Positions 22,776 through 45,901 of a stretch of 64,000 nt of DNA are shown here, one piece after another (within the stretch, counting starts at the first letter, position 1; the number at the start of each line of letters is the position of its first letter). The notes under the pieces were generated by a model. It made no database searches. It worked only from the letters and a program-made list of their open reading frames with translations, and was not told the DNA's origin. Position numbers and translations under genes: made by a program. The stretch covers positions 4,277,207 to 4,341,206 of the forward strand of contig NC_054886.1 of assembly GCF_018320785.1 (NCBI RefSeq), read 5' to 3'. The stretch is from Cheilinus undulatus. Taxonomy: Eukaryota; Chordata; Actinopteri; Labriformes; Labridae.

Positions 22776-25700
22776 ATGAGGAAGTTTATCTTGGTGTCAC
22801 CTTCTCTTCTCTGCAGCCTCTGTAAGTACGACACTATTTACTCCTCACCAGTGACTGCTCTGATTATCATTTAGAGATTTAAATCATTATATCCTCAGCT
22901 GAAGTGGTCACATGTCTGTTTCAGTTTGGATGGTTGGCTCTGAGTCTCACACTCTGGAGGTCCAGCCTGGTGAAGATGTCACACTGCTCTGCTCCAACTT
23001 CACCAGCGGTGCTGCTCAGATTACCTGGTTTAAACTGGTCAACAGAAAAGAGTCTCCCTGTGTGGCCCACATGTTTGAATATGGCGAACCTGCTAGACTC
23101 TGCAGTGGATTTCAAAAGGGAAAATTTGAAATGACATCAAACATCTCGACTGTTTTTCTCGACATCAAAGAAGTAGCTTTGTCTGACTCTGGGGTGTATT
23201 TTTGTGGATATACTTGGGTCAAGTCTAAAGTATTTTTTAATGCTACATTTTTGGAGGTGCAGGGTAAGTTTCTACAAAGTTTATTCCATCTTTTAAGTTC
23301 CTTTGAATGGGTTAATGATGCACTGATACTACTTTTTCAGCCTAAGCACAGGTAAATAAATTTGGGTATTTGCCCATACCAAACAAAAATATGAACTCTA
23401 GGGCAGTTATTAGAATTATTTTGGAAGTATGTACTAAATGACAGTTTAGCCATATCTCCATGTAGTGTTAATGCGGTGAGTAGGAAGCCAACTCATAACA
23501 CTTTTGAGAGCATAGTACAATAATTTAGCCAAGCCCTTTGTGATTTAAAACTGCGCCGACGCCATTTGCAGCAGTGCATGCATACGTTAGTACGTTTACA
23601 CGTTCACCTTTACAGACCAGATACCTTTCTCAGCCCAGGTACCAGCTCTTAAACCTGGGTATTCACCCAAATTATTTTAAAAGTATGTTTTAATTACATC
23701 GGATGTTTCCCATTCTGTCCTCCTGACAAGTTAGCAGCATAGTCAGCACTCTACTCTGCTTTTGTCATCTTCATTTATGACAAAATATTTCCAAACTGCA
23801 AACACAGCTCCAGCTTCAACCACCTGTTCGTGCAATGAGAGGCTACTGTCCTGCTGTAAAAATACATAGAGTACAGCATCTGCAATCTTATATCAGGTTA
23901 ACTACTTACTGTTAACCCTCAAATACCAACATGATGGCAGCAGGCTTTTACTGTACTCAAATGCTGCAAGTAATTAAACTTTTCACTGTTACTCAAATAC
24001 TGTAATACCTCTTTCCCACTGGCCGAAAAACCTGTTTAAACCCGCTAACAATCGGCTCCCGTCGGCAGTGGGAAAGGCTCTAATTGGCATTCAGACCTGC
24101 TTCAACTGACCCTGCAATGGACACGGGTTTTTATCGGCTCTCCTCCGATCGGCTCCAGTGGGGACGTCACAGCCGGGTGAACGCGGGATGATTTTGGCGT
24201 AACTTGCCTACGTTTATATTAATACAAGTAATACATTTATATTACTTGCCTGATGTGCTGGAGGAGGCAGGAGTTGAAAGGCAGAAATTTCGCAGTACGG
24301 CAGCGCAGTTTAACGGCACATATAAACACAAAAATGCCCTTGTCATAATGAACATATCCGCTGAGAAAAATAATTTTTCCACGGACAGATTTAGCTCATT
24401 CAGCCTGTTAAAATCTCATGGATTAGCTCATAAAGCGCCGTGCGTCCTTGCCGTGTGCAGCTGGAAAGAGAGATCCTTTTCAAACGATATAATCTATTAA
24501 CTAGGGGTGTGACAAGACACTTATCTCACCAAACAAGACAAGATTTGGGCCTACGAGACGAGATGAGATTTTACACTTTTTTTTAATTTTGGAAAAAAAT
24601 ACATAGGTGGATAATATGTCCTTTATTCAGGTCATTCAGGTCTATTCAAAAATGTTTGAACTAAGTACTGAATAGGCTATCAGTGCTTCCAAAGAGTATG
24701 TTTTGTCTAACTTTGACTCAAACTGTACATCTTAATGCTCTTCAAATCAAACCTTTCATTTTAAGGCTACGAAATCTTTAATTTACTACACTATGCATTC
24801 ATTGCTACAATTACAATAACTTTTTTTAATATTATACTTATTTATATATTATAAAAGCATTAAGATGATTATAAAAGTACTTTAAGCATTGTTTAAAACA
24901 GACTGAAATATAAAGAGCTGCATCAGTAAAATCAAACTATTTTTAATCCTCTTTAAGGACATCCATATTTAAAACACTCAAAATAAATCTTTAAATCAAT
25001 AACATATTAGCTATAATTTAAAGAAATAGATTATTCTATCAGTTTGTGGTCTTTTTTTCTCAAATGAGCTTTAACAGTGTTGGACAGGACGCACAGATGA
25101 GCGTGTGTGTTAATGTGTGTGCGTTTGTGAGTGAATGTGTGTGTCTCTGCTCTGTCTGCTGTCATAAAACAAACAGGGTGCGTTTAACTGGAGCTAGAAC
25201 TTCGCTTTTTGGAGCTAACAGCGGACTCTATGGTGCTCAAACGGCACTGGCGTGCACAGACTTTTTCAAGGGCAGGGGCAAAAAGAAAATAAAAGGGGAA
25301 CATACAGCGCGTTCTCGCCACTGAAGAGTGCGAGTTTTGCATGTTTTCGAGGGCACTTTAGCCCAAGAGGGCATTTTGGCTCTCGAGGGCGCTTTAGCAG
25401 ACGTTTTGGCTCTCGAGGGCACTTTAGCACATGATTTTTGCTCTCGAGGGCCCTTTAGCACATGTTTTGGCTCTCAAGGGCACTTTAACATGTGTTTTGG
25501 CTCTCAAGGGCACTTTAACTCATGTTTTGGCTCCCAAGAGGGCACTTAAGCATGCATTTTGGCTCCTAAGAACGCACTTTAGCATGCGTTTTTCAACAAT
25601 TGGGCAACGAGGGGGGGCGACCTACTCCCCGCACACCACTGTCAAACAGAGTTTTTTTTGCTAAGTTTACCGCTGCAGTATGCAGACCCATTGCGCTACA

Positions 25701-28700
25701 CATGTTAAGCTTCTGACTGATGATACGCACAGCCAACAGCTGATGGATGTGTGACTGACAGAAGGTGAGATGAGAAGGGGGCATGACGAAGCCGCGACTC
25801 AAAGTTACAAAGTCACGAATAGCGGCACTACGAGCGAGTCTGCGCGCATACACCAACTAAATAAACACTGTATTCTCATCATTTCATCAATTCACGCTGT
25901 TTAACAGCACATATAAACACAAAAAATGCTTTTCTGGCTCACTCTTGTCATAATGAAAATATCTGCTGAAAGCTATTATTTTTTCGTGAACAAGTCAGGC
26001 TTCTACAGCCTTGGATTTCTCATGCATTATCACATGAAGCGCAGTGCTGCGTAATGCAGCTGGAGAATGGGAGACTTTTAAAATAAGTTGTTTCTATTTC
26101 CCTTTATCATATGTCTGCTCCTTGGAAATGACTATATATTCATTTTTTAGTTTTCACCTTTAAATCTCGGTCTGAAAACTCTGCCGTCTCCTCCATCAGC
26201 TGTTAAGCCAGATGACAGCTGATGGAGGTGACCGGAGTTGGACAGGCTTAAGTTTCTGTTTTAAATCATTAAAAAAGATTGATGTTTGGCTAATATTTCC
26301 AAGAAGCAGATAGATGTGAAAAATTGAAATAGAAACATTGTTTAGAAACGGCTCTCCTTAACTTCATTTGGCTCATAAGTAGGAAGCACTGCGCTTTACT
26401 GGATAATCCATGAGAAATTCCAGGCTGTAGGAGCTGAATATGTCAACAGAACATTAAATATTCTCAGTGGATATCTTTGTTATAGAAAGACTGAGCTAGA
26501 AAAGCATTTCAGTGTCTTTATTTGTGTTTATTCATTGCTGTGCTGCAATGGGCGCATATAGCCTTTCAAAATGAGATTTATATTTCCCTTTTCACATTTC
26601 TCTCTGCTGTGTTCTTAAACCCCCTCTCTACGACTTAACAGGCTGAACTGCTGATGACTTCATCAGACGGCTTCATTCGAGCTGCAACGCTCAGTTCAGA
26701 CTGCTGCGACTCACTGTAGAACCGTCTTGCATCGCGAATCTGATGCTGATGATGATGTCTCCAACGTGATGACATCAGCTTGAGGCAAAAAAACAGCCAT
26801 GCAGCTCGCCTGCTGGCGATCACACTCGGGTCTGCTGGCAATGGGAAGGGAGTCACTTGCCGATTGATAGCAGGTTTACCCATGTTTTTAAAAAAAACGC
26901 TTTTGCACGCTAATTTTACCATTTTCCCACTATAATTAGCAAGTAAAAGGGTTTTTTTTTTAACGCGGGTAAACAAATGCCTATATGAGTCATGTTTTCA
27001 CTGTTACTCAGATTGTGTAAGAAGACTCTCTGTGGTTAAGTGCCTTATTTCTGATGCATATGTGCACTCATCAACTACCTGAAATGATCCTATCTACCTC
27101 GTGTAAATCTGACCACATCCTTAGAATTTTTTTTTCTGCTCATGTCTAGTCAGCATGCTTGCACCCTTTGCCCATCTTGCAACCGTACTCTCAATACACA
27201 CGGCTTGTATATCCCAGAAAAAATCTTTTAATATTTCATTTAAAAAGCTGAACAGAGTCCAATTCCTTGTTGTGTAGAAATACTTGGCCAAAAAAGCTGA
27301 TTCTAATATAAAGGAGGCTTTTAATTTGGAGACACTCTGTTATTTCTAATTCTCTCCATCTGAGTGATATAATTGTACTTAAAAAAATATCATTCATTCA
27401 TCATTTTTTTTCAGCAGGTTTAAAACAAAATGCAGTGTTTGAAAAAGGTATATTAAAACAACAAAAAGCTGCTTCTGAAAATATGTCTCCTGGGTCAGTT
27501 TAAAAAAAGGGATTTATGTTGATCTTAAATCAGTGTAAAGGAAGTGAATGATCATGAGATAATACAACTATGTTAATATGACTTAACTAACTTTATTATT
27601 TATTTTACAAATTTAATGAGAGAAATGGGCAGTATCTTAGGCAGTCAGACTCCTTCATGATGACTTCATGTACTTGATCTGGTAGTGAGGCAGACAGCAG
27701 GAGTAGGATAGCCCGCCTAGGAGTCTAGACATCCGTGTGGTTGTTGATGAGAGATGCAGGATCAGATGTACACTTCTGAGAAGCTGGACCATGAACCAAT
27801 GAGGTGCTTGGAGTAGCAGACTGAGGTATGCAGAATGAGATGAGTGGAAGATCTGGACTAGATGCTGATGAACTGAAAGGAGGTGGCTGGGGTGGAGGAG
27901 GGTCGCATTGAAATGATCGGCTGACTGTAAAAGAGAATGACAGATATAGAATATGGCAGGTGCATGATGATTGTTCAAATGACATTGTGGCAGAAACTGA
28001 TTAGCTTAGTACTTGAGAGGGAACGCCCATAATCAGCTGATCACAGGAGCGGGAAGAGAGAAAGAATGGAAGAAGGGAGAGATGTGAAATGTCCTGACAT
28101 GCATCGATTTTCCTCAAACATGACTCCTCCCAAAACATGACTGTCACGGATTTCAGGCAAAAAAACTCAAAAGGGAGGACCCAAATGCAGATAACTGAAA
28201 TGACTGATTTAATTAAACAAACAAACTTACTTGAAACTAAAACACTGGAATCAAAATCAACTAAACAAAATCCAAAAGAAGCACGAGGAGTAACTGACAC
28301 GAGGAAGACATTTGCAACGAACCGACACAGACACAGGGAGACACAGAGCTTATATACACAGGGAGTGATTAACAATGGCAGACAGGTGTGGACAATCAGA
28401 CACAGGTGAAACTGGTGAAGGATAATCAAAGTGGAGGGAAACTCAGGCAGGAAGCTAAACTGGAATCACACACAAGGGAAGGCAACTACAAAATAAAACA
28501 GGAAACATGGAGCCTAACACAAGAAGCACACAAGGACTGAAAACTGGGCACAAGAAGCTAAACTACAAAAACACTGAAAACACAGGAGGATACAAAGAAC
28601 CAAGGAGGGAAACTCAAACACAGGGAGTAAAACTAAAACATGAAACAAAACAAGAAGCACAGGGAAACTTAAAATGAAACAGGGAATTAACTAAACATAA

Positions 28701-31700
28701 AACACAAGGAGCAAAAACATAACATGAAACAGGGAAATAAACTAGACATGAAATACATGAAGTACTACACATTAAACACAGGGGAAAACCTAAACATGGA
28801 ACACAGGGAATTATTAAATACAATAAAAAACTAGACACATGGAAAATAACAAAAGCCCAAAATACACAGAAACACAAAGACTATATAAAACACTAAAAGC
28901 TGAACAAAGGAAACACAAGGGCTACAGATAACATCTAAGAACTAAACCAAATACAAAGTCAAACTAGAAATCACAGAATTCACAAAGGGAAACCATAGGA
29001 AAACTCAGAGACATAATAAACCAAAACCTGGGTCATGACAGAGTCCCTCCCTCAAGGGACGGATTCCAGACGTCCCAAAGAAAAAAACCTAAAACAGTTG
29101 ATTAAGCAGGGTGGGAGGAGGGGAGCCAGGAGGAGGGACCAAGAGTTCAGGTGGGCTGTCAGGGGGCAGCCCAGACGGGCACGAGAGTTCAGGTGGGCGG
29201 CCCAGAGGGGCACGAGAGATCAGGTGGGCGGCCCGGAGGCAGCCCAGAGGGGCACGAGAGATCAGGTGGGCGGCCTGGAGGCAGCCCAGAGGGGCATGAG
29301 AGTTCAGGAGGGCGGCCAGGGGCAGCCCAGGAGGACACGAGGGTTCAGGAGGGCGGCCCAGGGGCATCCCAGGAACACAGTTGGGGGTCAGAACCATCGA
29401 CGGGGAGCCAGGAGCCAAGGTCTCCCTCAGGACCTCTGACAGGGAGCTAGGAACAGAGGTCTGGACGGCCACAGATGAGGAAATTAGGAGCTTGGGTCTG
29501 GACGGCCACTGACGAGGAACCAGGAGTTTGGGTCTGGACGGCCACTGACGAGGAACCAGGAGTTTGGGTCTGGACGGCCACAGATGAGGAACCAGGAGCT
29601 TTGGTCTGGATGGCTTCCGGCGAAGAGTCAGGATCTGGGGTCTGGACGGCCTCTGGCAGGTAGTCAGGATCTGGGGTTGGATGGCCGCCAGCAGAGAATC
29701 AGGATCTGCGGTCCGGACGGCCTCCAGGGAAGAGTCAGGATCTGGGGTCTGGACGGCCTCCAGGGAAGAGTCAGGATCTGGGGTTGGACGGTCTCCAGCG
29801 AAGAGTCAGGATCTGGGGTCTGGACGGCCTCCAGCGAAGAATCAGGATCTGGGGTGTGGACGGCCTCCAGCGCAGAATCAGGAGCTGGAGTCCAGGCAGT
29901 CTCCAACATCGAGCCAGAAGCAGGGTTTCGGTCAGCCTCTGATGTCGAGCCAGGAGAGGGGGTCCGGGCAGCCTCAGGTGATGCAGAGCCAGGAGGTGGA
30001 GGCAGAATAGCCTCCAGTGGTGTCTCTTGTAAACCAGGCCAGGCAGACGGCGCTCTGCCGGGACTGGTGGCAGACGGCGCTCTGCGGCTCTGGAGATGCG
30101 TGGCTGAGGCTCTGCGGCTCTAGAGACACGTGGCTGAGGCTCTAGGGCTCTGGAAGCTGGAATCTCTGGGGGACTGGAAGCTGGACTCTCTGGGGCACTG
30201 GAAGCTGGACTCTCTGGGGCACTGGAAGCTGGACTCTATCTCCGGAGAGTCAACGAAAAACTAGCAGCCAATTAGGCAGGGACAACTTGAGCTCAGGCTT
30301 TAGAGCAGCTTCTCTCTTTGCCCTTCGAAGAGCAGCTCCTCTGTACAAGGGGTGAGTCTTTTTGTCCTTCCACAGTCCATAATAAGGAACCAAAAAATCA
30401 ATGAGTTCAAAAAGCTCATCACTAACCTGAGCATCTGCTGGGTCCATTACTGTTCGGTTCGTTCTGTCACGGATTTCAGGCAAAAAATCTCAAAAGGGAG
30501 GACCCAAATGCAGATAACTGAAATGACTGATTTAATTAAACAAACAAACTTACTTGAAACTAAAACACTGGAATCAAAATCAACTAAACAAAATCCAAAA
30601 GAAGCACGAGGAGTAACTGACACGAGGAAGACATTTGCAACGAACCGACACAGACACAGGGAGACACAGAGCTTATATACACAGGGAGTGATTAACAATG
30701 GCAGACAGGTGTGGACAATCAGACACAGGTGAAACTGGTGAAGGATAATCAAAGTGGAGGGAAACTCAGGCAGGAAGCTAAACTGGAATCACACACAAGG
30801 GAAGGCAACTACAAAATAAAACAGGAAACATGGAGCCTAACACAAGAAGCACACAAGGACTGAAAACTGGGCACAAGAAGCTAAACTACAAAAACACTGA
30901 AAACACAGGAGGATACAAAGAACCAAGGAGGGAAACTCAAACACAGGGAGTAAAACTAAAACATGAAACAAAACAAGAAGCACAGGGAAACTTAAAATGA
31001 AACAGGGAATTAACTAAACATAAAACACAAGGAGCAAAAACATAACATGAAACAGGGAAATAAACTAGACATGAAATACATGAAGTACTACACATTAAAC
31101 ACAGGGGAAAACCTAAACATGGAACACAGGGAATTATTAAATACAATAAAAAACTAGACACATGGAAAATAACAAAAGCCCAAAATACACAGAAACACAA
31201 AGACTATATAAAACACTAAATAAACTGAACTAAACACTAAAAGCTGAACAAAGGAAACACAAGGGCTACAGATAACATCCAAGAACTAAACCAAATACAA
31301 AGTCAAACTAGAAATCACAGAATTCACAAAGGGAAACCATAGGAAAACTCAGAGACATAATAAACCAAAACCTGGGTCATGACAATGACTCTACCACCTC
31401 TTTGCTGTTGTTGCAGCCTTGTTGGGACATGGTGGCCATCCACCAACTACTCCATCCATATGGACCATCCAGTGTAGCACAGCATTCATCAGTGAATTAA
31501 ACTGTTTGGGAAATAGTCTTCATGTATTTCTGAGCCCACTGCAATCATTTCTCCTTGTGGGCGCTGGTTTAGGGTGGCTAAAATACAGCTTCACATATAT
31601 CAGCAAGCCTCTGAAGGATTCTGTTGGGACTCCAGAGGCACCAGCAGCTTTAATACCTGTCTCCTACTCATCAGTGGATTTTTCACAGCTGCTCGCTTAA

Positions 31701-32862
31701 TACGATGGATTTGCCTCGCAGAAACTTTTCTTAATACGCCTTTATCTGAACAAATCCGTCGGTGCTCTGAATCAGCCACAGATCCTTTCACAGTTTGGTG
31801 GTTAATGTAAGCACCAAAACTGTGTGGGAGCTTCATGGAATGGGTTTCCATGGCCAAGCTTGCAAGCATCGCATCACAGGAGGGTTAATGGTATTGGGCT
31901 GTGTTTCAGGGTTTCGCCTAGACCCCTTATCTCCAGTGACAGCCAGTCTTAATACTTCAGCATACCAAGATATTTCGAACAATGCTCATTTTTGGGAAAG
32001 GTCCTTTTCTATTCTAACATGAGTGTGCCACGGTGCACAAAGCCCAGACTATAAAGACATGATTTGATGAGCTTGGTGTGGAAGAACTAGACTGACCTGC
32101 ACAGAGCCCTGACCTCAACCCTAGCGAGCTCCTTTGATGAACTTGGATGGAGATTGTGAGCCAGAAACATCCAAAATTTGTGGAAAACCTTCCAAGCAGA
32201 GTGGAGGCTGTTACATTTGCAAAAGAGGGGCAGCTCCATATGAAAGTCATTCTTCTATGTCCATCTAAAAAAAATAAATCAGATTGTGAGCCACAAGCGC
32301 TGAGCTGAACAGTGTTATTTCATGATCTGTTTTGTTGTAGATGATCTGGATGGAATGACAAAGCTGATGCTCCTGATCCTGGCTGGTCTGGCTGTTGTCC
32401 TCGTAATGATCATCATATGTCTGCTTGTTAAAATCAGACAGCTTCAGAAAGGTGACACTGACTTTTCTTCATGTTTCACAGCCCTTTTTATCAAACTGAA
32501 ACTGTATGAGTGAAAAAACCACAGCTATTTCTACAGCTGAACATGTTTTATTTCTGTCACATAGCTCAAAATGAAGAAAAGAATCCACAGCATAATGAGG
32601 TAAAGGTTCATTTCTTTTTCTGTACTTTAGCTGACGTGAAACCACCGAAATATGATTAATAATCAATAATATTCCTATGATTGTTATTAATGTGTGATTG
32701 GAAATATTTGATTCACAGTGTCCCGGCTCAGATGACCTGAACTATGCCGCCGTGACTTTTCATCCAAGAGCAGAGAGAAACCACAGACAGGCTTCAGACA
32801 GAGAAGTGGAACCAGATTGTATTTATTCAGCCACAAGACAGACAAAAAGCAACTGCAACTGA
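22776..32862 (+). CDS. Receptor B1: single-V Ig-domain ITIM receptor
   Basis: Intact five-exon gene, about 224 residues. Exons: 22776-22821 (signal peptide [15 protein letters not shown]), 22925-23263 (V domain), 32341-32451 (transmembrane), 32565-32599 (linker [12 protein letters not shown]), 32719-32862 (tail, stop TGA). All junctions are GT..AG and in phase. The V domain shows Cys38, Trp50, Cys109 and DSGVYFC, plus an extra pair Cys61 and Cys75 that may form a second disulfide. The helix lies at about residues 137-158. The tail has LNYAAV around Tyr186 (ITIM) and a CIYSATR motif around Tyr213. The 9-kb intron before the transmembrane exon holds a foldback element, the LTR element and an old Tc1 relic, whereas the same B2 intron is 4.2 kb. 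Likely an inhibitory immune receptor; exact subfamily unresolved. Confidence 0.87.
23264..24006 (+). other. B1 intron 2, first shared part
   Basis: Aligns with 41158-41885 of unit 2 with roughly 4% differences near the exon. No further exon, such as a second Ig domain, is seen. Confidence 0.6.
24500..25880. mobile_element. Nested element with tandem array
   Basis: Begins with 'aggggtgtgacaagacactt', a start common to a dispersed fish DNA element with gacgagacgag-like words. The position interrupts the foldback element, since matching sequence resumes at about 25893. Inside, 25330-25600 is a tandem array. The right limit is approximate. Confidence 0.4.
25330..25600 (+). repeat. Tandem repeat of about 30 bp
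   Basis: About eight imperfect copies of a unit like 'ggctctcgagggcactttag' plus 'cacatgtttt'. It is open in all three forward frames because the unit lacks stops; no protein is implied. Confidence 0.85.
26190..26228. repeat. Palindrome centre of the foldback element
   Basis: Perfect 14-bp arms, CCTCCATCAGCTGT at 26190-26203 and its reverse complement at 26215-26228, lie at the middle of the larger inverted repeat. Confidence 0.85.
26977..28136 (+). other. B1 intron 2, second shared part
   Basis: 26977-27245 and 27805-28105 align with 42330-42595 and 42610-42915 of unit 2. The middle (about 27250-27800) is missing from unit 2, where the flanks join with a gtcagagtcagtag junction, suggesting a deletion there. 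No exon is seen. Confidence 0.55.
28142..29040 (-). repeat. LTR (3' LTR in element orientation)
   Basis: 899 bp, TGTCACGG..GTCATGACA, nearly identical to 30465-31384. Confidence 0.9.
29041..30464 (-). repeat. LTR element interior with tandem arrays
   Basis: Contains two tandem arrays. About 29150-29350 has units of about 45-60 bp with 'gaggggcacgagagatcagg'. About 29470-29920 has units of 45-48 bp with 'atctggggtctggacggcct'. Both strands are open over long stretches because the units lack stops. A third short array (ctggaagctggactctctgg) lies near 30150-30240. The gag-like start lies at about 30450-30250 on the minus strand. Confidence 0.8.
30465..31384 (-). repeat. LTR (5' LTR in element orientation)
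   Basis: 920 bp. It matches 28142-29040 apart from about two substitutions and a 21-bp tandem extension near 31220. Confidence 0.9.
31390..32280 (+). mobile_element. Old Tc1-like relic in the B1 intron
   Basis: Forward-strand pieces recall Tc1 transposase: [20 protein letters not shown] near 31880, then DNA whose translation recalls the '[15 protein letters not shown]' region near 32075-32130, then its C-terminal part to about 32240. It is heavily degraded with several frame changes. The same relic, equally decayed, lies at 44400-45310 in unit 2, so it predates the cassette duplication. Confidence 0.75.
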
Positions 32863-34051
32863 AAACAGAAATAATGCTTTTTTTTAATGCAACAGTGTGT
32901 TTTGAATTGTTTCTAGGAGTGCCAACATTTTAAATGACTTAACATTTATATCACAAGGGTCAAAAGTCACGATTTTATGTCATACTTCCTTCTTATAACT
33001 GTCTACAAAGTAATGTCTGTAACTTTGTGTTTTTCCTGCTGCCTCTCTCGGCCAGTTCTCCCTTGAAAAAGAGGTTTTTAATTTCAGTGGGACCAACCTG
33101 GTTAAATAAAGGTTGAACAAAAATAAAATAAATAATGTCAAACAAAAATTTAAAAGTAATTGTATAAATTTTCAGCTCATGGGCGGAGTAAGGGGGCTTC
33201 AGCCCAGAATGTTTTCTTAAAAGCCCCGAATCTTTCAGGTTGGTTTTTAGTATGTTGCTTATGGCCTTGCTGATAACAGCATGTAAATGTAATTTTTAAA
33301 GTAATTTAAAAAATCTGATCTTTATTTTTTTCTTTACTTTTAAGAACGTATGTACTGAGGAGGACTATGGACATTTAACAAAAAAAATATGGTATGCATT
33401 TTTAAAAAATTCTAATAAAAACAACAGAAGTTTGACTTCATTGCAGAATTTTAAAAAAGGCATGCCGTTTTTTTAATGGCCCTAATACTCTTTCATATCA
33501 ATACACTCACTGCAGTGTAAAAAATACTTTTAAAATTGTTCTAAAAATACAATTTTCAGCATTTTTGTGAATAAATTAATATCTCCAACCACAATTAAGA
33601 GTTTCAATTGTAAACCTTTTCACCAAATTCCTACCTTACCTATGTAATGTTACTTAAAATATAAACTTAAAGGCATTTGTAGGAGGCAGAAGTGAAAATT
33701 ACTTGACTCAGCATGGTGGATCATTATTTTAAAATGATAATGACACTTTTAGCTCAGTTAGGTGAAGAAAAAATGTTATCAATTAAGCAGTTTTTTGCAT
33801 AAATTTGTGCATAAAAATTCAAGGAAAGTGCCCGACCCTTGGCCATCTTTAGTTTGGGCTAAGCCTCAGATTCTAAACATATCAGGCTCCGCCCCTGATT
33901 CAGCTCTTTTAAAGTAAAAGACATAATTCAACAGAGGTCCAGCCAACTGGTGCCGTAGTCTCACAGTTAGTGAGAAGATCATGGGGAACACCTGAGAGCA
34001 GTGATTGTAGTATAAAGACACCGGTGTCTGGAAGGTCCAGTCGCTGGTTAA
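32863..34051 (+). other. B1 3' flank and unit boundary
   Basis: Aligns with 45902-47083. AATAAA words suitable for polyadenylation occur near 33104 and 33125. No gene is recognised. The tandem junction with unit 2 is at about 34052. Confidence 0.6.
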
Positions 34052-34468
34052 TTATGAAGAGAAAGTATGTTGAAGTTGTAGGCTTGAGAGTGAGGATCAT
34101 GTCAGTGGTAAATCAACATCCTCCAGTATCACAGCTCCTCCCATCACAGTTCACACCTCAGACCAAACTTTCATAAACTCACATGACTCCTGCCCCGCTG
34201 TCTGCAAGGTGTCAACTGCACGTGCTCATATCAAAGCATTCTCTCTGCTGAAGGCTGCTTATTGGAGAGGTGAGAGACAGCAGCTAAACCACAGCAGGAG
34301 AGGTTCCCCTCTACTTACACTGTTTAACTATAAAGTACATGTTGACCTACTTAGCAAACATTTATCCGCTGAGTAAGAGTCAGACTGCTACTGAACACTC
34401 CCTCTTTTCATATTTAACCCACTTTGACTAAGTAACAAACTTAACTACAGTGCAGGCGTACCGTACCG

Positions 34469-35489
34469 ATGATGATGAGCGTTACCTTGGTAACAGTTTT
34501 CCTCTTTACCTTCAGTAAGTACAACCATCTTTATATTATCACTCTGCATGGTGCACTCCCAGAATTACCCACTGTTTTAAGCTGTCTGTTGTAAAACAAA
34601 AAGTAGTTTTTTCTGATGACTCTCTCCTCTGTTCAGGTTGTATTTCCTTTTCCGTGTGTGAGTTTCATACTATGGACACTCAGCCTAGAGGAGAAATCAT
34701 GCTGCTGTGCTCCAATTTTAGCAGTATGCCCATTCACATCGGCTGATTCAGACTGAACAAAACATCCAGTGTCAGACAAATCTCCTCCATGTTAACTGCT
34801 GGTAGAAATGCTTCTCTCTTTGGTGAATTTCAACACGGCCTTTCTGTGGTATTTCTGTGGATTTAACAAAAATAACACCACCGTTATTGTCAGTGCAACG
34901 TCTTTTAAAGTCCAAGGTAAGACGTTATAAAGTGACAGCCTTTCATTTTTAATAAATTCTTGTTTTTAGACAGAATTGTGACTTCTATTACTCTTCTTGT
35001 AGGAACATTTGTTGGATTAAGCTGCCCTATGATCCTGATCCCGGGTAGTCTGGTTGTTCTCCTCATGATTGTCATCTTAACTCTGGTTGTTATAATCAGA
35101 AACAGTCCTGCAGGTATTTGAAAATGCATCATTTTCTGTAAAACAACCAGCTAAATTTTTAACTTTTAATTGAGCATATGTTTTATTTTTGTTGATTAGC
35201 CCAAAAAGAGGAACAGAATCCACCGCTACAGGAGATATTAAATATTTTTATTCTGATTTTGCATTTTTCTGCATGTTTTTGTCTACATTTATCTCATTCT
35301 AATGTGTATTATTTACAGAATGTGGGCTCTGATGATGTGACCTATGCAGCGCTGCGGTTCCATGCAAAAGCAAACAGCAGAAAACGGTCTGCAACAGAGA
35401 ACAATCAACAGACAATTGTTCTGTATGATGCAACAGCAGAGAGCAGCGATGCTCAGGGTGTGGATCTCAAACCAGATGGCACTTTTTAG
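34469..35489 (+). pseudogene. Receptor A2: decayed copy of A1
   Basis: Exon equivalents are 34469-34514 (three tandem ATGs), 34637-34916, 35003-35113, about 35200-35234 and 35319-35489. Three lesions are visible against A1. The conserved V-domain tryptophan codon (TGG at A1 Trp51) is TGA at 34744-34746. A net 65-bp deletion after 34840 removes the stretch up to the DSGLYFC motif and shifts the frame. The donor after the linker exon reads GAG|at instead of AAG|gt near 35234. The ITIM exon is still open and close to that of A1 (VTYAAL in place of VTYAAV), which suggests recent loss. Unless unusual splicing skips these parts, no receptor can be made. Confidence 0.88.
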
Positions 35490-37685
35490 TGAGCAGGAAT
35501 AGCTCTTAAGTCTTACTTGAAAAAATATTTCCCCCAGAAAACCTTCAAACCTTCATCTCTATATTTCTATCATATGTGTGCAAAAAAGAACATGCAAGAC
35601 AAATATCACTTATTCTGGAGAAAATCTGTTCCAAACTTGACTCTGTACATGCTGCTTTTTGTTTGTTTGTTTGTTTGTTTTTGTAAAAATGAACAAAACC
35701 ATCATCTGATGAAGGTTACACCAAGCTCTTTGCATGCTCACATTTATATATTATTTTCAGTAATTACTGGTTTCGGATTGTGTCGAAGTGAGAAATTTTT
35801 CTGTGTGCATATGTATTTCCATGTGTAAGGCACCTCTTTTTTCATTAATCTTTAATTGAATCAAAATTAAAATAGTCCAAATTATTTTCTATTTTCACAA
35901 ACATTCTGAATTCCTATCTCTCCTCTTAGTTCTTCATTATGACATCATCGCTGTCTCACAATTAATACTTTTAGCTACAACTGCTGAGGATCGACATTAA
36001 CGGTAGAAATTCACTGAAAACAGAAACTGAACATAATGTATTTTCACAAAAGATAACAATAGATTAAAAAATTGTCTTTAGTGGTAAAATCGTTTACATT
36101 TTTGTGCTTATTATCACTTATTTTTGCATAAAGATGATGGTATCATGTCTCGTAATCCTCATAGGAGGAAAAAAGTTGCACCATTTTGAATCCTTAATAT
36201 TTTCTCACAAATTAAATACTTTGGTTAAAACCAACAAAAAAAAGGCTTTAAAAAAGTTTTTAAATGTGTTCTGTGTTCCTCTCGTTCATCCGCCATGTTT
36301 GAGAGCAGCAACCCCAGTGTAGAGGCCCACAGCTGAACGCCCTACCATAGAGGTCTGCAGCCAGATGCCTCTCAAAATATGGTGAATTGTGTCGTACCAC
36401 CAAGAGAAAAAAAGTAGTGACGATGATTCTGTGCCTCCTTGAAACACACTCACTGACAGAGATGGTCATTCAGCACCAGCTCATTCATCACAGCACCGTG
36501 CCAGGTTGGAGAGATGGAGAGCAACGTCTTTATTCAGACTGTTTCATGGCAGTGAGTACAAACTTTGGCACACTATAGATTTTGTGGTTGATACCAACAT
36601 AATCAGACAAATCACAGTGTTTTAAGTGAGATTTCAGTGCGAGAGAGAGGAGGGGCTGAGTGAGCAAGAAGGTGAACCGGAAGGAAGAAACAGATGACAG
36701 TTTCAGTATCAGTGTGCAAGAATGATTAACACCTCTGAAGTTTGTTTTTCTTCTTTGATGTGTTAAAATTTTGAATGAAAAACTGACTCAGTGTGCAAAG
36801 GCCTTTATTTCCAGCTCTTCACCCCAACACTTAGGTACATTCACGCTGTAGGCCTTAATGTTCAATTCTGATCTTTTGCTCTGATCTGATTTTTTTTTTT
36901 TTTTTCTGTTCACACTGCGGTCAAACTCCAGAAGATCAGATATGCATCTGATTAAATACCACATATGAGAGTGGCCTGAATCTGATATTAAAACTGTCAT
37001 AAAGAAATTCAATTTGAGTTTTAAAAAAATAGATTTTGGTCACTTTAACTGCAGTGTTAGCACAGCCTTATTCATTGTATTCTGCTTTTTTTTCTTTTTT
37101 TACTTTTTCCACCTTCCTTCCCTCTTTCCCTTCTTATCCTTTCAACCACTTTTCCAAATATTCACCGTTATTCCCCTATATTCCACATTTCCCTCTTTTT
37201 CACCAGATATTTGTTTTTCCAGCCTTTCCCTTTTCCCTTTTCACACCTTTATTCCCCCCTTCTAGTTTGAGGCTACCACGTTTGTGTTATGGCATACTTT
37301 TATGGACTAATTCATCATGAAATGGTCTTTTTTTTGTGAAGGGAAACACAATTATTGGTTTAAAATGACAGCCTCAGTGTCATGCTCTCACTTCCCATAT
37401 AAGCTAGTGTCATCTAATAGTCTAAACAGTGTACTAATGCATGTGCAAAGTTGACAGAGAAGTTTCCTACTTTAACATAATAGCCGAGTCCATTTAAATG
37501 TATGCTTCTTTCCAGAAATTCAACATATCAGCACAGACATATTGTATATAATATACAGTATATACTTGAATTTCCCTTGTGATTAATAAAGTATCTGTCT
37601 ATTTTTTTATTTTTTGTGCAGCTGGAATAATTTCACTCTCTTTTCTGTGTTTTTAATCGTAGTCCTTGTAAAACTGTTCTTATAG
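35490..37685. other. A2-B2 intergenic region, first part
   Basis: Counterpart of 5293-7316, including the pyrimidine-rich tract at about 37085-37262. A stretch at about 35950-36370 is not matched in unit 1. No gene is recognised. Confidence 0.5.
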
Positions 37686-40632
37686 TAAAGGTCAGGCAGC
37701 AGCCCAGCATTATCAGCAGTCCTAGAGGGTCACAGCAGTCGCTGTTAGTAAAACTCCAGTAGCTCTGATATGGTCCAGCACACAAAGCAAGACCTGTATT
37801 TAATATGATCCATATCTGAGCTTCATGAGGAAAACCTTTATGGGAGAGTTTTGTTAAGAAATTACGGCTCTTATATGGCCTAGATCTGACTGACGGACAG
37901 TCTTAGAACCTAAACCCATCAACACCAAACCTCTTATTCAGCCCACATTCGCACGCAATTCACAAGCCAGATCTGGCCCAAATCTGAAGTTGTTTACCCT
38001 CCACATAAATGTTTAGATTTTTTTGACAGACAGACAGATCGATCGATCGATTGATAGATAGATCACTTTACTGCACAAAGTTAACTCTTTCATTTGTATT
38101 TTAATATGCCTTGAATCGTAGATTAAACAGAACAGGCCTTTCTGAATCATGCTCCATTAAATAGAGGTTGCCAACAACACTCATTTTTGAAAACTTACAG
38201 GATGGAGATTTTTGGAAACTCCGTTTTCTACGTTTCCAGACAGGGAAGATGGAGAACTTGCCCTGAAACGTCCAACTGTGTTCCAGTTTCTCCTCTGTTT
38301 GTCACAGGTGTGCGATGTTAATTTTGTTTCCATAGCAACGCTGGATGCAGCAAAAGTTGTGCTGGACTTGCTACAGAACTTTCTCCATGCTTGCACAAAC
38401 ACAGCTTTTCCAACTGTGATGACAAAACAGACACCTGACTGGACCCTCCACCAATGTCAGCAGTTTGGATCTGACCCAGTTAGAGTTAATGGAAAAATTT
38501 TGAGAAGAAAACAGGCATTACGGAGGAACGGTAAGAGAATTCCCACATGTCAGGACATTATTTCTGTTTGTGAGTAAACTTGTTCAGCTCTACAGTAAAA
38601 GACAGACTATTGATATGGTGGGATCTTTACAGAAGCGTGTTTCTGCACCTTTGTGTGGACGCAGATGCTCCTGAAACGCTGTGCATGGGGACGGGATTAT
38701 TTTTGAAGAAGAAAAAAACTTTGGTTTTGAAAATGTCACACAGACACTAACTATAGACCAGGAGTGATTAGACACACATGTGTGATCATATCAACACAAA
38801 TATGAGTTCAGAAATCCATTTCCGTAAAAAGTCTTGAGGGGGAGTAGTCAGATTTTCTTTCAAATCATGTGTGACTGTGGGTAGAAATCATCAGAATCAA
38901 ATCAACAAACAGTCTGTTTTGACTCACCTTACAGATGAACGCAGGTTGGAGTCAGTGAGATGAAATGCAACAGCAATAAAAGTCTCCTGATGCCTAAAAA
39001 AAACGCTGTTTCCATGCAGCACAAGCCATAAACTCCTCTGAGCTGCTCAAAGATGTGTAGACACTGGCATCGCCAAAGGTGGTTTTAAATCATCCATGGT
39101 GGCAGGACAGACTTTTTGTCATCTTAACATAAAAACAAACTTTGCCCAGGTAATGACTCAAGTGGTTGCCATGGTAGCTTCTTCTTTCTCCTCCTTGGTG
39201 GGTTTGTAAACCAGCTACGTTTGTACCCCCCACCTGTTGTGTTAGACTGAGTCTATACACTAGTGAGCCTGGGAAGGGATCAGTCTTGCTAGTGTGAAAG
39301 CAAGCCAGCAGAGGAAGGGGGAGGGGGTTGAATCAATTTGAAACAACTGGGTCTTGTGTGAAAGCACTCTCTGTCTACCAGGTGAAGCCACGTCATCATC
39401 ATCATCATCACTCCAATACCAAGGCATAACCAGATGTGTTCTGCTGCCCTCTAGTGTCAAAGGTGCAGCAGAACACATCTGGTTTTGTCTTGGCGCTCAT
39501 ATATTCTGCCATGTCATTGTTGCCAATTAAAAACCACACATGGCCCAAAAGTCAGAAGTAATTTTTGGGTTAGATGCTCCAGTTACCAAAGACTCACTGA
39601 GGGGAAAAGTCTGGAGATACGTCAGAGCAAATGTGGTTCTGATTTGGCCCTCATACGTTTTGCCATGCCACATTTCAGCCACAGATCCCACATGAATGCC
39701 ACATTGGCCCAAAAGTTGATGCTATCAGAGAGGGAATGTCTCTGATTGGTTGAGATGTGAATTTCCAGCTGCTACAAGCTGCAGACAGTGAATGGTAACC
39801 GCTGAGCTCTGTGAGGATGACAGAGGGCACCACAGGCATTTGTAGTAGCTACTTTTCACCTGTAGAGGGCAGTCACCATGCACATGTATTTGACACAGAA
39901 GTGTCCATCTAAATACCCATATTCAGAGATTTTTTTTTTTTTTTTTTTTTTTTTTGGTGTTGCTTTAATAGCTGAAATCATTTCCTAAATTTAATCAGAT
40001 TCCAGGAAACTTCAGTCGACCAGTTATCTCTGAAAAGGAAGAGAATCATGGCGTCTGTGCAGTCTCATTAAACCTCTAATCTCTGTTCACGCTCACCACA
40101 TAACAGCCACAGCGAAGTCAGCTACCATCCTTTTACACTGTGACATGCACTCAGTCTTCTCATCACTGCTAGAGCTTATCTTTCACAGGCATTATTTTTA
40201 TTAGAATAATTCAGTTCCTGGTACTGAGCCCTGTGGGACGTCACAGGTCATGCATAGGCATCTTGACCTGTGGTTGGCCATCTGAGCAAAGATCATCCTG
40301 TTACCATGTCTTCAGCCAGTCATGAGCTAGCCCTCCTCCACCACACCTTTACATCTTTACATTAAGTCATGGTTGACTGTATCAAAACCCTTTTTAAATC
40401 GATAAATTTTCTGTGTTTTGTTTTCAAAGTCACTGAACAGCCATCCAGTAAGAGCACCTAACTAAATTATGATGCACATCAGAAAATAAAGAAATAAAAA
40501 AAATGGCTGATTGGTTGTGATCAGGCTTTTCACATTTGAGTTACTAAAATAGTAAATGGCATCTCTATGCTGCACAGACCCCGCCCCTTTGATAGACTCC
40601 GCCTCTTTAAACCTCATGTAGGACATCTGCTG
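37686..40632. other. A2-B2 intergenic region, second part
   Basis: Counterpart of 11036-16575 without the unit 1 insertions. It contains the near-identical block 39180-39930, a poly-T run at 39931-39955, and the uninterrupted target sites of the 632-bp insertion (near 40470) and of the L1 (near 40485-40510). No gene is recognised. Confidence 0.55.
39428..39484. repeat. Perfect 20-bp inverted repeat (hairpin), unit 2
   Basis: Identical to the hairpin at 13798-13854, with the same 17-nt loop. Confidence 0.9.
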
Positions 40633-40669
40633 TATAAAGAGTGATAACAGTCACTCAGTCTTGTGCACA

Positions 40670-43600
40670 ATGAGGAAGTTTATCTTGGTGTCAGCTTCTC
40701 TTCTCTGCAGCCTCTGTAAGTACGACACTATTTACTCCTCACCAGTGACTGCTCTGATTATCATTTAGAGATTTAAATTATTACATCCTCAGCTGAAGTG
40801 GTCACATGTCTGTTTCAGTTTGGATGGTTGGCTCTGAGTCTCACACTCTGGAGGTCCAGCCTGGTGAAGATGTCACACTGCTCTGCTCCAACTTTACCAG
40901 TTCTCCTACTCAGATTACCTGGTTTAAACTGGTCATCAGAAGAGAGTTTCCCTGCGTGGCCCACATGCTTCAGTATGGTGAACCTGCTAGACTCTGCAGT
41001 GGATTTCAAAAGGGAAAATTTGAAATGACATCAAACAACTCGACTGTTTTTCTCCACATCAAAGAAGTGGATTCATCTGACTCTGGGCTGTATTTTTGTG
41101 GGTATAAGGTGGGCAGAAATCCAGTGATTGTTGATGCTACATTTTTGGAGGTGCAGGGTAAGTTTCTACAAAGTTTATTCCATCTTTTAAGTTCCTTTGA
41201 ATGGGTTAGTGATGCACTGATACTACTTTTTAAGCCTAAGCATAGGTACATAAATTTGGGTATTTGCCCATACCGAACAAAAATATGAACTCTAGGGCAG
41301 TTCTTAGAATTATTTTGGAAGTATGAACCAGATGAAAGTTTAGCCATATCTCCATGTAGTGTTAATGTGATGAATAGGAAGCCAACTCATAACACTTTTG
41401 AGAGCATAGTACAATAATTTAACCAAGCCCCTCATGATTTAAAACTGTGCCGACGCCATTTGCAGCAGTACATGCATCCGTTAGCATGTTTACACATTCA
41501 CCTTTACAGACCAGATACCTTTCTCAGCCCAGGTACCAGCTCTTAAACTTGGGTATTCACCCAAATTATTTTAAAAGTATGTTTTAATTACATCAGATGT
41601 TTCCCATTCTGTCCTCCTGACAAGTTAGCAGCATAGTCAGCACTCTACTCTGCTTTTGTCATCTTCATTTATGACAAAATATTTCCAAACTGCAAACACA
41701 GCTCCAGCTTCAACCACCTGTTCATGTACTGAGAGGCTACTGTCCTGCTGAGTACAGTTTCTGCAATCTTATATCAGGTTAACTACTTACTGTTAACCCT
41801 CAAATACCAACATGACGGCAGCAGGCTTTTACCGTACTCAAATGTTGCAAGTAATTAAACTTTTCAATGTCACTCAAATACTGTAAGGCTCTCTGTGGCC
41901 ACATGCTTCACCTCATATGTATATTAGAACTAATTCATCTACTTACCCTACTAATAACTAATCTATTCACTGCACTAATTTCTAATTTAATCTACTTCGG
42001 TGTTTCTCAACCATTTTTCCCTGGAGCCCCCCCAGGACCCAGGAGAGAAGAAACAATTACATACTGCTGTTAAAAATCAACATAAATTTTAATTGTTTCA
42101 CTGATAAAACCTTAAAAAAGGCCTATGCATGGTTTTGTTATCAAAAGACCTTTGTATAAAGTACTTAATAACTGCTTTATCACGGTTTTAAACAATATTT
42201 GCAAATCTAGTTTTGGCAGCCTCAGAGCAGACAAAGCCCCACCCCCCTAACATTTTTGGCGCCCCCCTTGGGGGTCCTGGACCCCAGATTGGGAACCAAT
42301 GATCTATTTACTGTACTCAAATTCCTATATGATTCATTTTTTCACTGTTACTCAGATTGTGTGAGAAGGCTCTCTGTGGTTAAGTGCCTTATTTCTGACG
42401 CTTATGTGCACTTATCAACTATCTGGAATGATCCTATCTACCTCGTGTAAATCTGACCACATCCTTATAATTTTTTATTCTGCTCATGTCTAGTCAGCAT
42501 GCTTGCACCCTTTGCCCATCTCGCAACCATACTTTCAATACACACGGCTTGTATATACTAAAAAAAATCTTTTAACACTTCATTTAAAAAGCTAAACAGA
42601 GTCAGAGTCAGTAGTTGGAGTAGCAGACTGAGGTATGCAGAATGAGATGAGTGGAAGATCTGGACTAGATGCTGATGAACTGAAAGGAGGTGGCTGGGGT
42701 GGAGGCGGGTCGCATTGAAATGATCGGCTGACTGTAAAAGAGAGAATGACAGATATAGAATATGGCAGGTGCATGATGATTGTTCAAATTACATTGTGGC
42801 AGAAACTGATTAGCTTAGTACTTGAGAGGGAACGCCCATAATCAGCTGATCACAGGAGCGGGAAGAGAGAAAGAATGGAAGAAGGGAGAGGTGTGAAATG
42901 TCCTGACATGCCAAGATTTTCCTCAGTTTTCTTTCTCCACAAAACCGACTACACTGATCGCAGTTATACTGATGGAAAACTTAAGAGGGGTATGGGGGCA
43001 GAATTTTCCCAGCATGCTCTTGAGCATTGTGCTTTAGGACTAAAAGTCAAAGGAAGTTATTTAAATATGATCTGATGTTGTCTGTTATGCGGTATGCACT
43101 GTTAAGACGATTTTGCATGTTAAAGATGAAAGCGTTGCTTTTGTGGTTTGACACTTTGGCAGCGTGAATGAAATTACCGAGTCGATTGCACACAGACACT
43201 GAAATGTGTCACAATATGAGCGGCATTTGACTACATTTAAAGTAGAAAGTATGATTATGTGATTCCAGTGATAAACAGTTTATGCTAAAGCTTCATGTAT
43301 TTTAGTCTCCAGTGCTTAAAAATCTGTGGGCCATATTCAAGTACAATTGAGTTAATCTAACTTAACTTAAAATATTGATACCTCATAAATACTTCATGTT
43401 GTTTTGAACATCAGGTCTGATGAGTGTAGTGATGATGCTGCAGGTTTTGTACCTTGCATGTTCAGATGAACTTACTACAAATGTAGAAAAGTTGATCAGT
43501 TGACAAAAGACAGTCAGTAGATATTTGTTGGCTCATATCAGACTTGATTTTCACAGACGTTTGTGTTCACAGGTCTGTTTTTGTCACCTCAGATCACACA

Positions 43601-45901
43601 GCATTGACACTGCCAAACAAGCTGCAACAAGCATTTCACACTCATTTTCACACTTGCACAAGAACTGTAGACTATGTTTCTCTTTTATGCATAACAGCTG
43701 CTCTACAATGTTCCATATGCATACACTGTTTTTTAATTTTTCCTAAAACCTCGGTATAAGCTTTATCAGTCCTCAACAATTATATTTCTATCTGGGTTTT
43801 ATTTGACAACATTACCAATGATGACAACGGCATCTTTTTGCAAAATAACTTAAAATCTAGTGTCCCAAACTATTCAAAACAGAGTTTCAAAACACTCACT
43901 AGTTTCAAAAGGACTGAAAACAGAAATCTGTTGTGATGTTTTGCATTAGGAGGTCATTTATAAAGGTATTTCAAAATCAGAGCTATTTCAATGAAAAACA
44001 TTTTTACAGATCCAGTTCTATATTAACATAAGATCCCGTCTTTGATATCACCTTAACAACTCTCTCAACCGTTGAACTTGTAAGTCCATGTATAGTTTCT
44101 GCCTGTGTTTCCTCTGAGGATGCCAGAATAGCCTCCCAGAGCTGCTGTTCTGGGGTAAACTGCCCTCCATCCACCCTTATAGAGCTTCCTTTAAAGGATG
44201 CTCCACAGGTTCTCAGTAAGGTTAAGTTTTTCTCCTTTTATGTCTCCAGCTAGCAGCCAAGGGCTCAGTGGGATTTTTTGCAGCATGGTGTTATCTTTCA
44301 TGACAATTTTACTCTGGAAGGCACAGTTCTTCTTTTTGTACCATGCAGTGTTAATTTTGTCAACTGAAACTATGACTAAAAATCTTTGTCGACAGCCTTT
44401 ATTTCCATGACATAAACTAGACCAACCATCCACTACTCCTCCATCTGAACCATCCAGGGTTGCACAACAGGAAACAAGACTGTTTGAAAATGAGTCTTCA
44501 TGTATTTCTGAGCCCACTGCAATCATTTCTCCTTGTGGGCGTTGGTTGAGGGTGGCTGAAATACAGCTTCACACACATCAGCAAGCCTCTGAAGGATTCT
44601 GCATTGAGAGGTTGTTGGGACTCCAGAGGCACCAGCAGCTTTAAATACCTGCCTCCGACTCATCAGTGAATTTTTTCACAGATGTTCTCTTAATAACGAT
44701 GAATTTGCTTTTACAGAAACTTCCCTAAATATGCCCTGAATCACTCAGATCTTTTCACAGTTTGGTGGTTAATGTAAGTACCAAAACTGTGTGGCGGGAG
44801 CTTCATGGAAAGGGTTTCCGTGGCTGAGCAGCTAAATGCATGCCTCGCATCACCAAGTCCAATGCCAAGCTTTGGATGGACTGCCTGACCGCATTGTTCC
44901 AACTGTAAAGTTTGGTGGAGGAGGGATTATGGTATTGGGATGTTTTTCAGGATTTAGCGTAGACCCCTTATCTCCAGTGAAGGCCAGTCTTAATGCTTCA
45001 GCATACCAAGACTTTTGGATAATGCTATGCTTCCAACAGTTTGGGGAAGGTCCTTTTCTATTCCAACATGAGAGTGCACAAAGCACAGACCATAAAGACA
45101 TGATTTGATGAGTTTGGTGTGGAAGAACTAGACTGACCTGCACAGAGCCCTGACCTCAACCCTAGCGAGCTCCTTTGATGAACTTGGATGGAGATTGTGA
45201 GCCAGAAACATCCAAAATTTGTGGAAAACCTTCTAGGCAGAGTGGAGGCTATTACATTTGCAAAAGAGGGGCAGCTCCATATGAAAGTCATTCTTTTATG
45301 TCCATCTAAAAAAATAAATCAGATTGTGAGCCACAAGCACTGAGCTGAACAGTGTTATTTCATGATCTGTTTTGTTGTAGATGATCTGGATGGAATGACA
45401 AAGCTGATGCTCCTGATCCTGGCTGGTCTGGCTGTTGTCCTCGTAATGATCATCATATGTCTGGCTGTTAAAATCAGACAGCTTCAGAAAGGTGACACTG
45501 ACTTTTCTTCATGTTTCACATCCCTTTTTATCAAACTGAAACTGTATGAGTGAAAAAACCACAGCTATATCTACAGCTGACCATGTTTTATTTGTAACGT
45601 AGCTCAAAATGAAGAAAAGAACCCACAGCAGAATGAGGTAAACGTTCATTTCGTTTTTCTGTACTTTAGCTGACATGAAACCACCAAAACATGATTAATA
45701 ATCAATAATATTCCTATGATTGTTATTAATGTGTGATTGGAAATATTTGATTCACAGGGTCCCGGCTCAGATGACCTGAACTATGCCGCCGTGACTTTTC
45801 ATCCAAGAGCAGAGAGAAACCACAGACAGGCTTCAGACAGAGAAGTGGAACCAGATTGTATTTATTCAGCCACAAGACAGACAAAAAGCAACTGCAACTG
45901 A
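40670..45901 (+). CDS. Receptor B2: single-V Ig-domain ITIM receptor
   Basis: Intact paralogue of B1, about 224 residues. Exons: 40670-40715 (signal peptide [15 protein letters not shown]), 40819-41157 (V domain), 45381-45491 (transmembrane), 45603-45637 (linker), 45758-45901 (tail). Splice sites and phases match B1 exactly. The V domain keeps the two canonical cysteines, the tryptophan, DSGLYFC and the extra cysteine pair, but differs from B1 at about 22 residues, concentrated in loop regions (SSPT for [14 protein letters not shown] for [10 protein letters not shown]). The tail ITIM LNYAAV and CIYSATR are unchanged. TATAAA at 40633-40638 serves as promoter. The pair suggests shared inhibitory signalling with different ligand specificity. 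Confidence 0.88.
41998..42301. mobile_element. hAT-like MITE in the B2 intron
   Basis: Imperfect inverted ends CGGTGTTTCTCAACC and (reverse complement) CATTGGTTCCCAATC, with flanking 8-bp repeats ATCTACTT (41990-41997) and ATCTATTT (42302-42309), seven of eight matching. A related longer copy lies at 49511-50283. Confidence 0.75.
42302..44400 (+). other. B2 intron 2, remaining sequence
   Basis: 42330-42915 matches the B1 intron. 42930-44400 is present only here; its counterpart in B1 was lost or never present around the LTR element. No exon or recognisable element is seen in this part. Confidence 0.5.
44400..45310 (+). mobile_element. Old Tc1-like relic in the B2 intron
   Basis: Counterpart of 31390-32280. 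Readable pieces include [20 protein letters not shown] and [18 protein letters not shown] (about 44890-45080), corresponding to the central part of a Tc1 transposase. It is decayed by several frame changes and lies at the same place relative to the transmembrane exon as in B1. Confidence 0.8.

Follow-up and report, generated by a model that had tools for sequence, protein, structure and literature searches.

Divergence at silent and replacement sites in the loop segments of the V exons of two paralogous single-V-domain genes of Cheilinus undulatus

Two genes that we call B1 and B2 lie in a 64,000-nucleotide stretch of the Cheilinus undulatus genome (assembly GCF_018320785.1, contig NC_054886.1, positions 4,277,207 to 4,341,206, forward strand; hereafter the window), and the exons that encode their immunoglobulin (Ig) variable (V) domains differ far more than the introns and signalling exons around them. 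The excess lies in the loop segments of the V exon and includes silent sites. We lean towards the explanation that the loop variation is older than, or has been exchanged independently of, the sequences that flank it and that diversifying selection keeps it in place. When an exon has diverged more than its introns and mainly by replacement, positive selection seems the obvious cause, and a first-pass annotation of the window interpreted the pattern in this way. This common shortcut misleads here, as the silent changes suggest a different history for the loops. The cluster has five intact copies, 3' backbones of two kinds and a clear drop in similarity, and it is well suited to testing how innate receptors maintain diverse loops with a signalling tail in common.

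Structure of B1 and B2

In our spliced models, B1 and B2 are complete five-exon genes that encode a signal peptide, one Ig V-set domain, a transmembrane segment, a short exon and a cytoplasmic tail. The models hold a single Ig exon, intron 2 not having been searched with an I-domain profile. Their features, in window coordinates, are as follows (the Pfam V-set cut-off is 26 bits).

22776..22821, + strand: B1 signal-peptide exon; opens with ATG and is followed directly by a GT donor; the spliced model reads to the stop in the tail
22925..23263, + strand: B1 V exon, one Ig V-set domain; Pfam V-set 46.5 bits; AG/GT splice sites
22997..23241, + strand: B1 divergent block; holds all 37 V-exon differences from B2
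32341..32451, + strand: B1 transmembrane exon; spliced model
32565..32599, + strand: B1 short cytoplasmic exon; spliced model
32719..32863, + strand: B1 cytoplasmic tail exon; LNYAAV and a second tyrosine motif, CIYSAT
40670..40715, + strand: B2 signal-peptide exon; spliced model
40819..41157, + strand: B2 V exon, one Ig V-set domain; Pfam V-set 46.3 bits
45381..45491, + strand: B2 transmembrane exon; spliced model
45603..45637, + strand: B2 short cytoplasmic exon; spliced model
45758..45902, + strand: B2 cytoplasmic tail exon; LNYAAV

The LNYAAV of both tails is a canonical immunoreceptor tyrosine-based inhibitory motif (ITIM), and the second tyrosine motif, CIYSAT, is not. The two tails are almost the same, which supports the conserved inhibitory signalling proposed in the first-pass annotation.

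Searching the 1.17-Gb genome at the DNA level with the V exon of B1 or of B2 returns the same set of at least seven places, all on the contig of which the window is part (C22), and a protein search for V exons returns at least 13 places, 12 of them on C22. The B group comprises a pseudogene (P0) and five intact paralogues, namely B-3, B-2 and B-1 (the upstream trio), B1 and B2. The A and C families are more distant from this group, and L7 is one reverse copy that lies 3 kb outside the window.

Divergence along the two genes

Of the 339 sites of the V exon, 37 (10.9%) are not the same in B1 and B2. Twenty-nine codons are changed, 22 of them with a change of residue (22 of 112 residues) and 7 purely silently, and our recount thus returns the figures first reported. 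Averaged over mutational paths, these changes amount to 10.5 silent and 26.5 replacement steps, 3.5 of the silent steps falling inside multi-change codons. Differences elsewhere are fewer. They number 1/47 in the signal exon (22776-22822), 2/111 in the transmembrane exon (counted over 32340-32450), 2/36 in the short exon 4 and 1/145 in the tail exon, where the differing base is 32719 in B1 and 45758 in B2; the two transmembrane sites and single tail site of the first-pass annotation are therefore correct. Introns 1, 3 and 4 differ at 2/102, 5/112 and 5/119 sites, the first 750 bases of intron 2 at 35/729, the remaining alignable part of intron 2, a poorly aligned piece included, at 101/1454, and the 3' flank at 66/1078. 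The V exon exceeds introns 1, 3 and 4 together with the start of intron 2 (47/1062, p = 4e-5), all alignable introns (148/2516, p = 9e-4) and all non-coding sequence (219/3762, p = 6e-4). The earlier claim that it diverges more than both the introns and the signalling exons thus holds.

All 37 differences lie within a 245-base block (22997-23241), and the first 72 and last 22 bases of the V exon are identical. If 37 changes fell at random, the first 72 bases would be left untouched with a probability of 8e-5, for a block that was picked post hoc. The differences occur in runs (23007-23009, 23213-23216 and 23222-23225), and transitions make up a smaller share of them in the V exon (17/37) than in the introns (32/47, p = 0.048). 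Both features would be expected if mutation, for example clustered multi-base mutation, were locally raised in the loops at silent and replacement sites alike, with no need for exchange between copies. We consider this explanation clearly improbable, because the A and C pairs have no silent excess limited to the loops and because the site incompatibilities and changing nearest relatives described below suggest sharing between copies.

Replacement and silent change in the V exon

Given that B1 and B2 differ by more replacement than silent changes, it is necessary to weigh the two kinds of change against the sites at which they can occur. By counting (the Nei-Gojobori method, NG86), the 26.5 replacement steps are set against 262 sites and the 10.5 silent steps against 74, which gives a replacement divergence (dN) of 0.108, a silent divergence (dS) of 0.158 and a dN/dS ratio (omega) of 0.69. 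Replacements therefore outnumber silent changes because replacement sites are more numerous. A likelihood estimate that allows for transition bias gives a dS of 0.140 (0.075-0.245) and an omega of 0.83, which does not differ from 1 (likelihood ratio test, 0.20). Across the ten B pairs the counted omega ranges from 0.59 to 1.25 and exceeds 1, by more than rounding, in three (1.03, 1.06 and 1.25), and the whole-exon likelihood omega of six pairs ranges from 0.63 to 1.11. A dN/dS comparison, of the kind that the first-pass annotation put forward as a check on positive selection, thus does not support it, as the replacement rate is not above the silent rate in the exon or, as shown below, in the loops.

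The silent sites themselves are in excess. The dS of 0.140 between B1 and B2 compares with 0.046 in the nearer introns (p = 0.004) and 0.061 in all introns (p = 0.027), and against all listed non-coding sequence p is 0.026. In theory, where two copies share one history, selection on replacements leaves the expected divergence of neutral linked sites unchanged, so a silent excess calls for a segment with an older history, flanks that have been homogenised, or more frequent mutation. With nearby introns as the reference, the excess is found at p < 0.05 in four of six pairs (B1/B2, B-3/B-2, A-1/A1 and C1/C2). The pooled test gives 3e-6 for six pairs and 2e-5 for four disjoint pairs with this reference, and 1e-4 and 0.003, respectively, with all listed non-coding sequence. 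We do not rely on a pooled value of 7.5e-9 from four chosen pairs, which omits the two pairs with no excess and uses nearby introns.

The loops and the rest of the V exon

To compare the loops with the rest of the exon, we delimited the loops after the alignment had been seen and, for the pairwise counts, by their distance from the conserved Cys and Trp residues, with IMGT numbering. Between B1 and B2, 34% of the silent sites and 25% of the replacement sites in the loops have changed, as against 7% and 5.5%, respectively, in the remainder of the exon. The silent counts are 6.5/19.0 in the loops versus 4.0/54.7 in the rest (p = 0.012), and the replacement counts are 15.5/62.0 versus 11.0/200.3 (p = 3e-5). 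Silent divergence is thus nearly fivefold higher in the loops than in the rest, which is close to the intron level. The silent contrast is also seen for B-3/B-2 (7.5/18.0 versus 2.5/55.2, p = 1e-4) and is less clear for B-3/B-1 (3.0/18.7 versus 1.0/53.8, p = 0.052). The C pair has no loop effect. The A pair has more replacements in the loops (14.5/61.8 versus 9.5/189.5) and no loop excess of silent changes (2.5/19.2 versus 8.5/50.5), and it looks like ordinary selection on the loops. We also fitted a codon model to the five B paralogues, with the loops defined in three ways and each definition run on two trees. In these fits, the loops have 3.8-8.7 times the neutral rate of the rest (p from 3e-6 to 0.008), and the loop omega, 0.76-1.42, does not differ from 1 in any of the six fits.

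These results bear directly on plain positive selection, in which B1 and B2 have a single history and repeated adaptive replacements in the loops have outpaced the introns. For the five paralogues, the site model M2a is preferred over M1a on three trees (twice the log-likelihood difference, 26.7, 36.8 and 29.6), with 12-14% of codons in a class whose omega is near 8-9. Codons 28, 30, 33, 38, 97, 99 and 101 are picked on all three trees, codon 38 lying outside the defined loops. Both models assume one silent rate. Therefore, we generated 48 simulated data sets in which the loops evolved fast and omega was 0.95 throughout. Of these, 14 passed the 5% cut-off with fast loops alone, and one exceeded 26.7; the simulations were run without recombination, which would weaken the M2a test further. 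The M2a signal is thus nominal, weakened but not removed by the simulations and not to be trusted alone, and some codons may be under selection. The rarity of such a value in simulations without selection, and the classic signature of the sister A pair, with its loop excess in replacements only, also speak for plain positive selection. It leaves the silent excess of the loops unaccounted for, however, and neither the whole-exon omega values, counted or by likelihood, nor the loop omega once the loops are given their own rate is what it would predict. We therefore regard it as unlikely, although less so than the other alternatives. Of the original proposal, the clustering of the changes in the loops stands; the replacement excess does not, and the loop omega is indistinguishable from 1 given the loops' own rate.

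Signs of exchange between gene copies

The 5' part of these genes shares a more recent history across gene groups than does the 3' part. From the promoter side through the signal exon, intron 1 and the V exon, both B1 and B2 can be aligned with B-1, and B2 also with B-3. Over the 5' part that ends at base 16 of intron 2, the similarity of B1 and B2 to the upstream genes is ~90%. Past this base, three of the six pairs (B1/B-3, B1/B-1 and B2/B-3) are ~70% alike over 110-127 bases, B2/B-1 has a 47-base match, and B-2 has no significant match to B1 or B2. We therefore rejected the idea that homology with the upstream genes ends at base 16, since similarity instead drops to ~70%. The transmembrane exons of the upstream genes are 72-77% identical to those of B1 and B2, the 3' end of B-3 is ~87-90% identical to that of C2 (two longest matches), and LNYAAV is also present in the C2, B-3 and B-2 tails. 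Similar 5' parts joined to dissimilar 3' halves point to a younger 5' cassette on two older 3' backbones.

B2 and B-3 do not differ at any of 221 bases from the signal exon to base 72 of the V exon, and they differ at 11/160 sites in the flank before this segment and at 34/245 in the V block after it. In the same segment, B2/B-1 have 4 and B1/B-1 have 5 differences, and intron 1 divergence is low in all ten B pairs (0-5/103). Such values would also be expected if conversion had merely homogenised the flanks and tails, leaving the V exon at its true age with no selection on the loops. We consider that explanation highly improbable, as it would make it a coincidence that the loops are the sites spared, and the framework of the same exon is close to the intron level.

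Among the five copies, incompatibility affects 81 of the 171 pairings of informative V-exon sites, and neighbouring sites are more compatible than shuffled ones. The pairwise homoplasy index (PHI) gives p values of 0.009-0.057 with five V exons (three window sizes) and 0.0006-0.09 with six. When L7 and P0 are used to polarise the changes, positions 23007, 23215, 23225 and 23227 unite B1 with the trio to the exclusion of B2, position 23181 unites B2 with the trio to the exclusion of B1, and no derived base in the V exon is common to B1 and B2 alone. Which paralogue is nearest likewise depends on the part of the exon. B2 agrees with the upstream trio at 45/46 sites of the E-F stretch and B1 at 40/46, and in the FG loop the nearest relative of B2 is the P0 pseudogene (29/37) and that of B1 is B-1 (29/37). 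Elsewhere in the genome, the B2 V exon finds B-1 as its best match (456 bits) and B1 as its third (445 bits). The 5' flank tree strongly supports B1 and B2 as a pair, by 24 log-likelihood units (lnL), with approximately unbiased (AU) test values of ~0.001 for other trees. A GENECONV-type run test gives values below 0.05 for five of 15 pairs, uncorrected for the 15, with p = 0.10 for B1/B2.

The V exons of the other members of the B group, with P0 counted in and L7 left out, are 81-90% identical to B1 and 85-90% identical to B2. The first-pass annotation had named as the outcome that would speak against positive selection that a third gene had supplied one of the V exons by conversion, with no replacement excess. 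The replacement excess is indeed lacking; we rejected a swap of the whole V exon from a third gene, since no close donor V exon was found among the best-scored genome matches.

A model for the origin of the loops

The backbone and the loops of these genes thus seem to have partly separate histories. We propose that B1 and B2 arose recently by tandem duplication of an inhibitory receptor gene with one V domain, in a cluster whose genes trade sequence. The two would owe the likeness of their flanks, introns, tails and V framework to a recent common ancestor or to homogenisation. Their loop segments would go back to older variation, mosaic in form and distributed among at least five paralogues, so that silent and replacement sites differ alike. 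Most likely, diversifying selection that acts on the contacts with ligand holds different loops in different copies and would stop conversion from erasing them, and the ITIM tail would stay common to all. We infer gene conversion as the route of the loops, selection as their keeper and ligand contact as the reason.

Several observations weigh against this proposal. With all listed non-coding sequence as the reference, a silent excess is found in only two of the six pairs (B1/B2 and B-3/B-2), with p = 0.41 for A-1/A1 and 0.08 for C1/C2, and B-3/B-1 and B-1/B-2 have no excess with either reference. The 3' flank of the A pair differs at 100/541 sites, level with the silent sites of its V exon, so it may be the nearby A introns that are unusual. 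The loops of the A and C pairs do not hold a disproportionate share of the silent changes, and the number of silent loop sites is ~19 per pair. The PHI signal is only moderate (p = 0.046-0.36 with seven V exons, the distant L7 included), and positions 23086 and 23120 set the trio apart from both B1 and B2. The V-exon tree does not reject B1 and B2 as sisters; that tree is the best, with four others within 0.82 lnL, and the topology test is uninformative. Constraint could be part of the reason why so few differences occur in the 221-base segment, and there is no close donor of the present loops among the best-scored genome matches.

The simplest account of the B group would be the known divergence peak under gene conversion, in which exchange makes the flanks and framework stay similar and selection spares the loops. 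In the duplicates that PMC3924837 describes in its treatment of conversion (Innan et al.; red/green opsins), introns and flanks are low and functional sites high in divergence, as they are here. Silent and replacement divergence are raised together in the peak in the B group, and the flanks are low. This pattern is absent at the loop level in the A and C pairs and depends on the reference for the whole exon, which also counts against the proposal. Our case differs from the opsin peak in having at least five copies, a mosaic of loops and selection that is inferred rather than measured. CEACAM and CD300 are similar cases of homogenisation by conversion. Likewise, SIGLEC11 and SIGLEC16 are reported to have ectodomains homogenised by conversion although the receptor genes differ elsewhere (PMC5701461). 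Unlike in those paired receptors, both tail types here carry ITIM-like motifs, so we identified no activating partner. It is conceivable, though quite improbable in our judgment, that the cluster works by germline exchange of loop-sized segments that feeds V loops to receptor genes with two kinds of 3' half. If so, it would be an innate counterpart of templated V diversification, and the pairing of loop and tail would vary by individual or haplotype.

Relationship to the NITR family

The B1/B2 cluster resembles the NITRs of bony fish, which, as PMC2442602 describes them, form tandem clusters and have V-set ectodomains, ITIM tails and strong V diversity between copies. According to the same paper, nearly all medaka NITRs have a J motif (FGXGTXLXV) ending the V and/or I domain, most have an I-type second Ig domain with six conserved cysteines, and the majority have an ITIM or ITIM-like tail motif. 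The main text of this medaka paper does not contain the terms "gene conversion", "positive selection" or "synonymous". B1 and B2 share the V-set domain and the LNYAAV ITIM. They are unlike NITRs in having one V domain in the model and in the corresponding ends of the V exon, FFNATFLEV in B1 and IVDATFLEV in B2, from which both glycines of the J motif are missing. We therefore do not file them as NITRs despite the similar layout. NITR10 and NITR11 structures match the B1 and B2 V domains at E values of 6e-6 to 1.5e-5, behind many antibodies. On the same contig, menin, to which a known NITR cluster is linked, lies at 10.50 Mb, ~6 Mb from B1 and B2, and NITR-like V exons with FGxG J motifs lie at 4.080-4.094 Mb. 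V-type exons at L008:3335-3847, L009:74-562 and L009:6300-6716, on both strands, end in FGSGTFLMV, FGNGSKLLV and FGEGVFLSV, respectively, which resemble the NITR J motif. A narrow literature search found no named fish family for single-V, ITIM-bearing genes; the pattern is thus of a known kind, in a family for which we found no name.

Other features of the cluster

In the B-1 tail frame (L024, ~4653-4893), LNHAAV stands in place of the LNYAAV of its relatives, so the ITIM tyrosine seems to have been lost. A gene relic (L019:9766-9812 and L020:3790-3867; C22:4196972 and 4200996) combines a B signal exon with a C-type transmembrane exon; it has no V exon, ~750 bases that include this exon being missing relative to B-3. 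In the A family, the A1 V exon is open at 4394-4714 of the window, and a second V exon, at 34640-34916, is a pseudogene that lacks some sequence and is interrupted by an in-frame stop.

The promoter homology of B1 and B2 starts at 22608, ~170 bases upstream of the B1 start codon, and a sequence that by eye resembles a non-LTR (long terminal repeat) retrotransposon (20000-22600) ends just 5' of this point. Within intron 2 of B1, two direct copies bracket a repeat-rich stretch (28141-31390), as in a young mobile element; the copies are identical across the 300 bases reported, and by eye for longer. Lastly, 13394-14062 and 39027-39692 are copies that are 98-100% identical and lie 25.6 kb apart, closer to one another than the other reported duplicated pieces between gene copies (93-95%).

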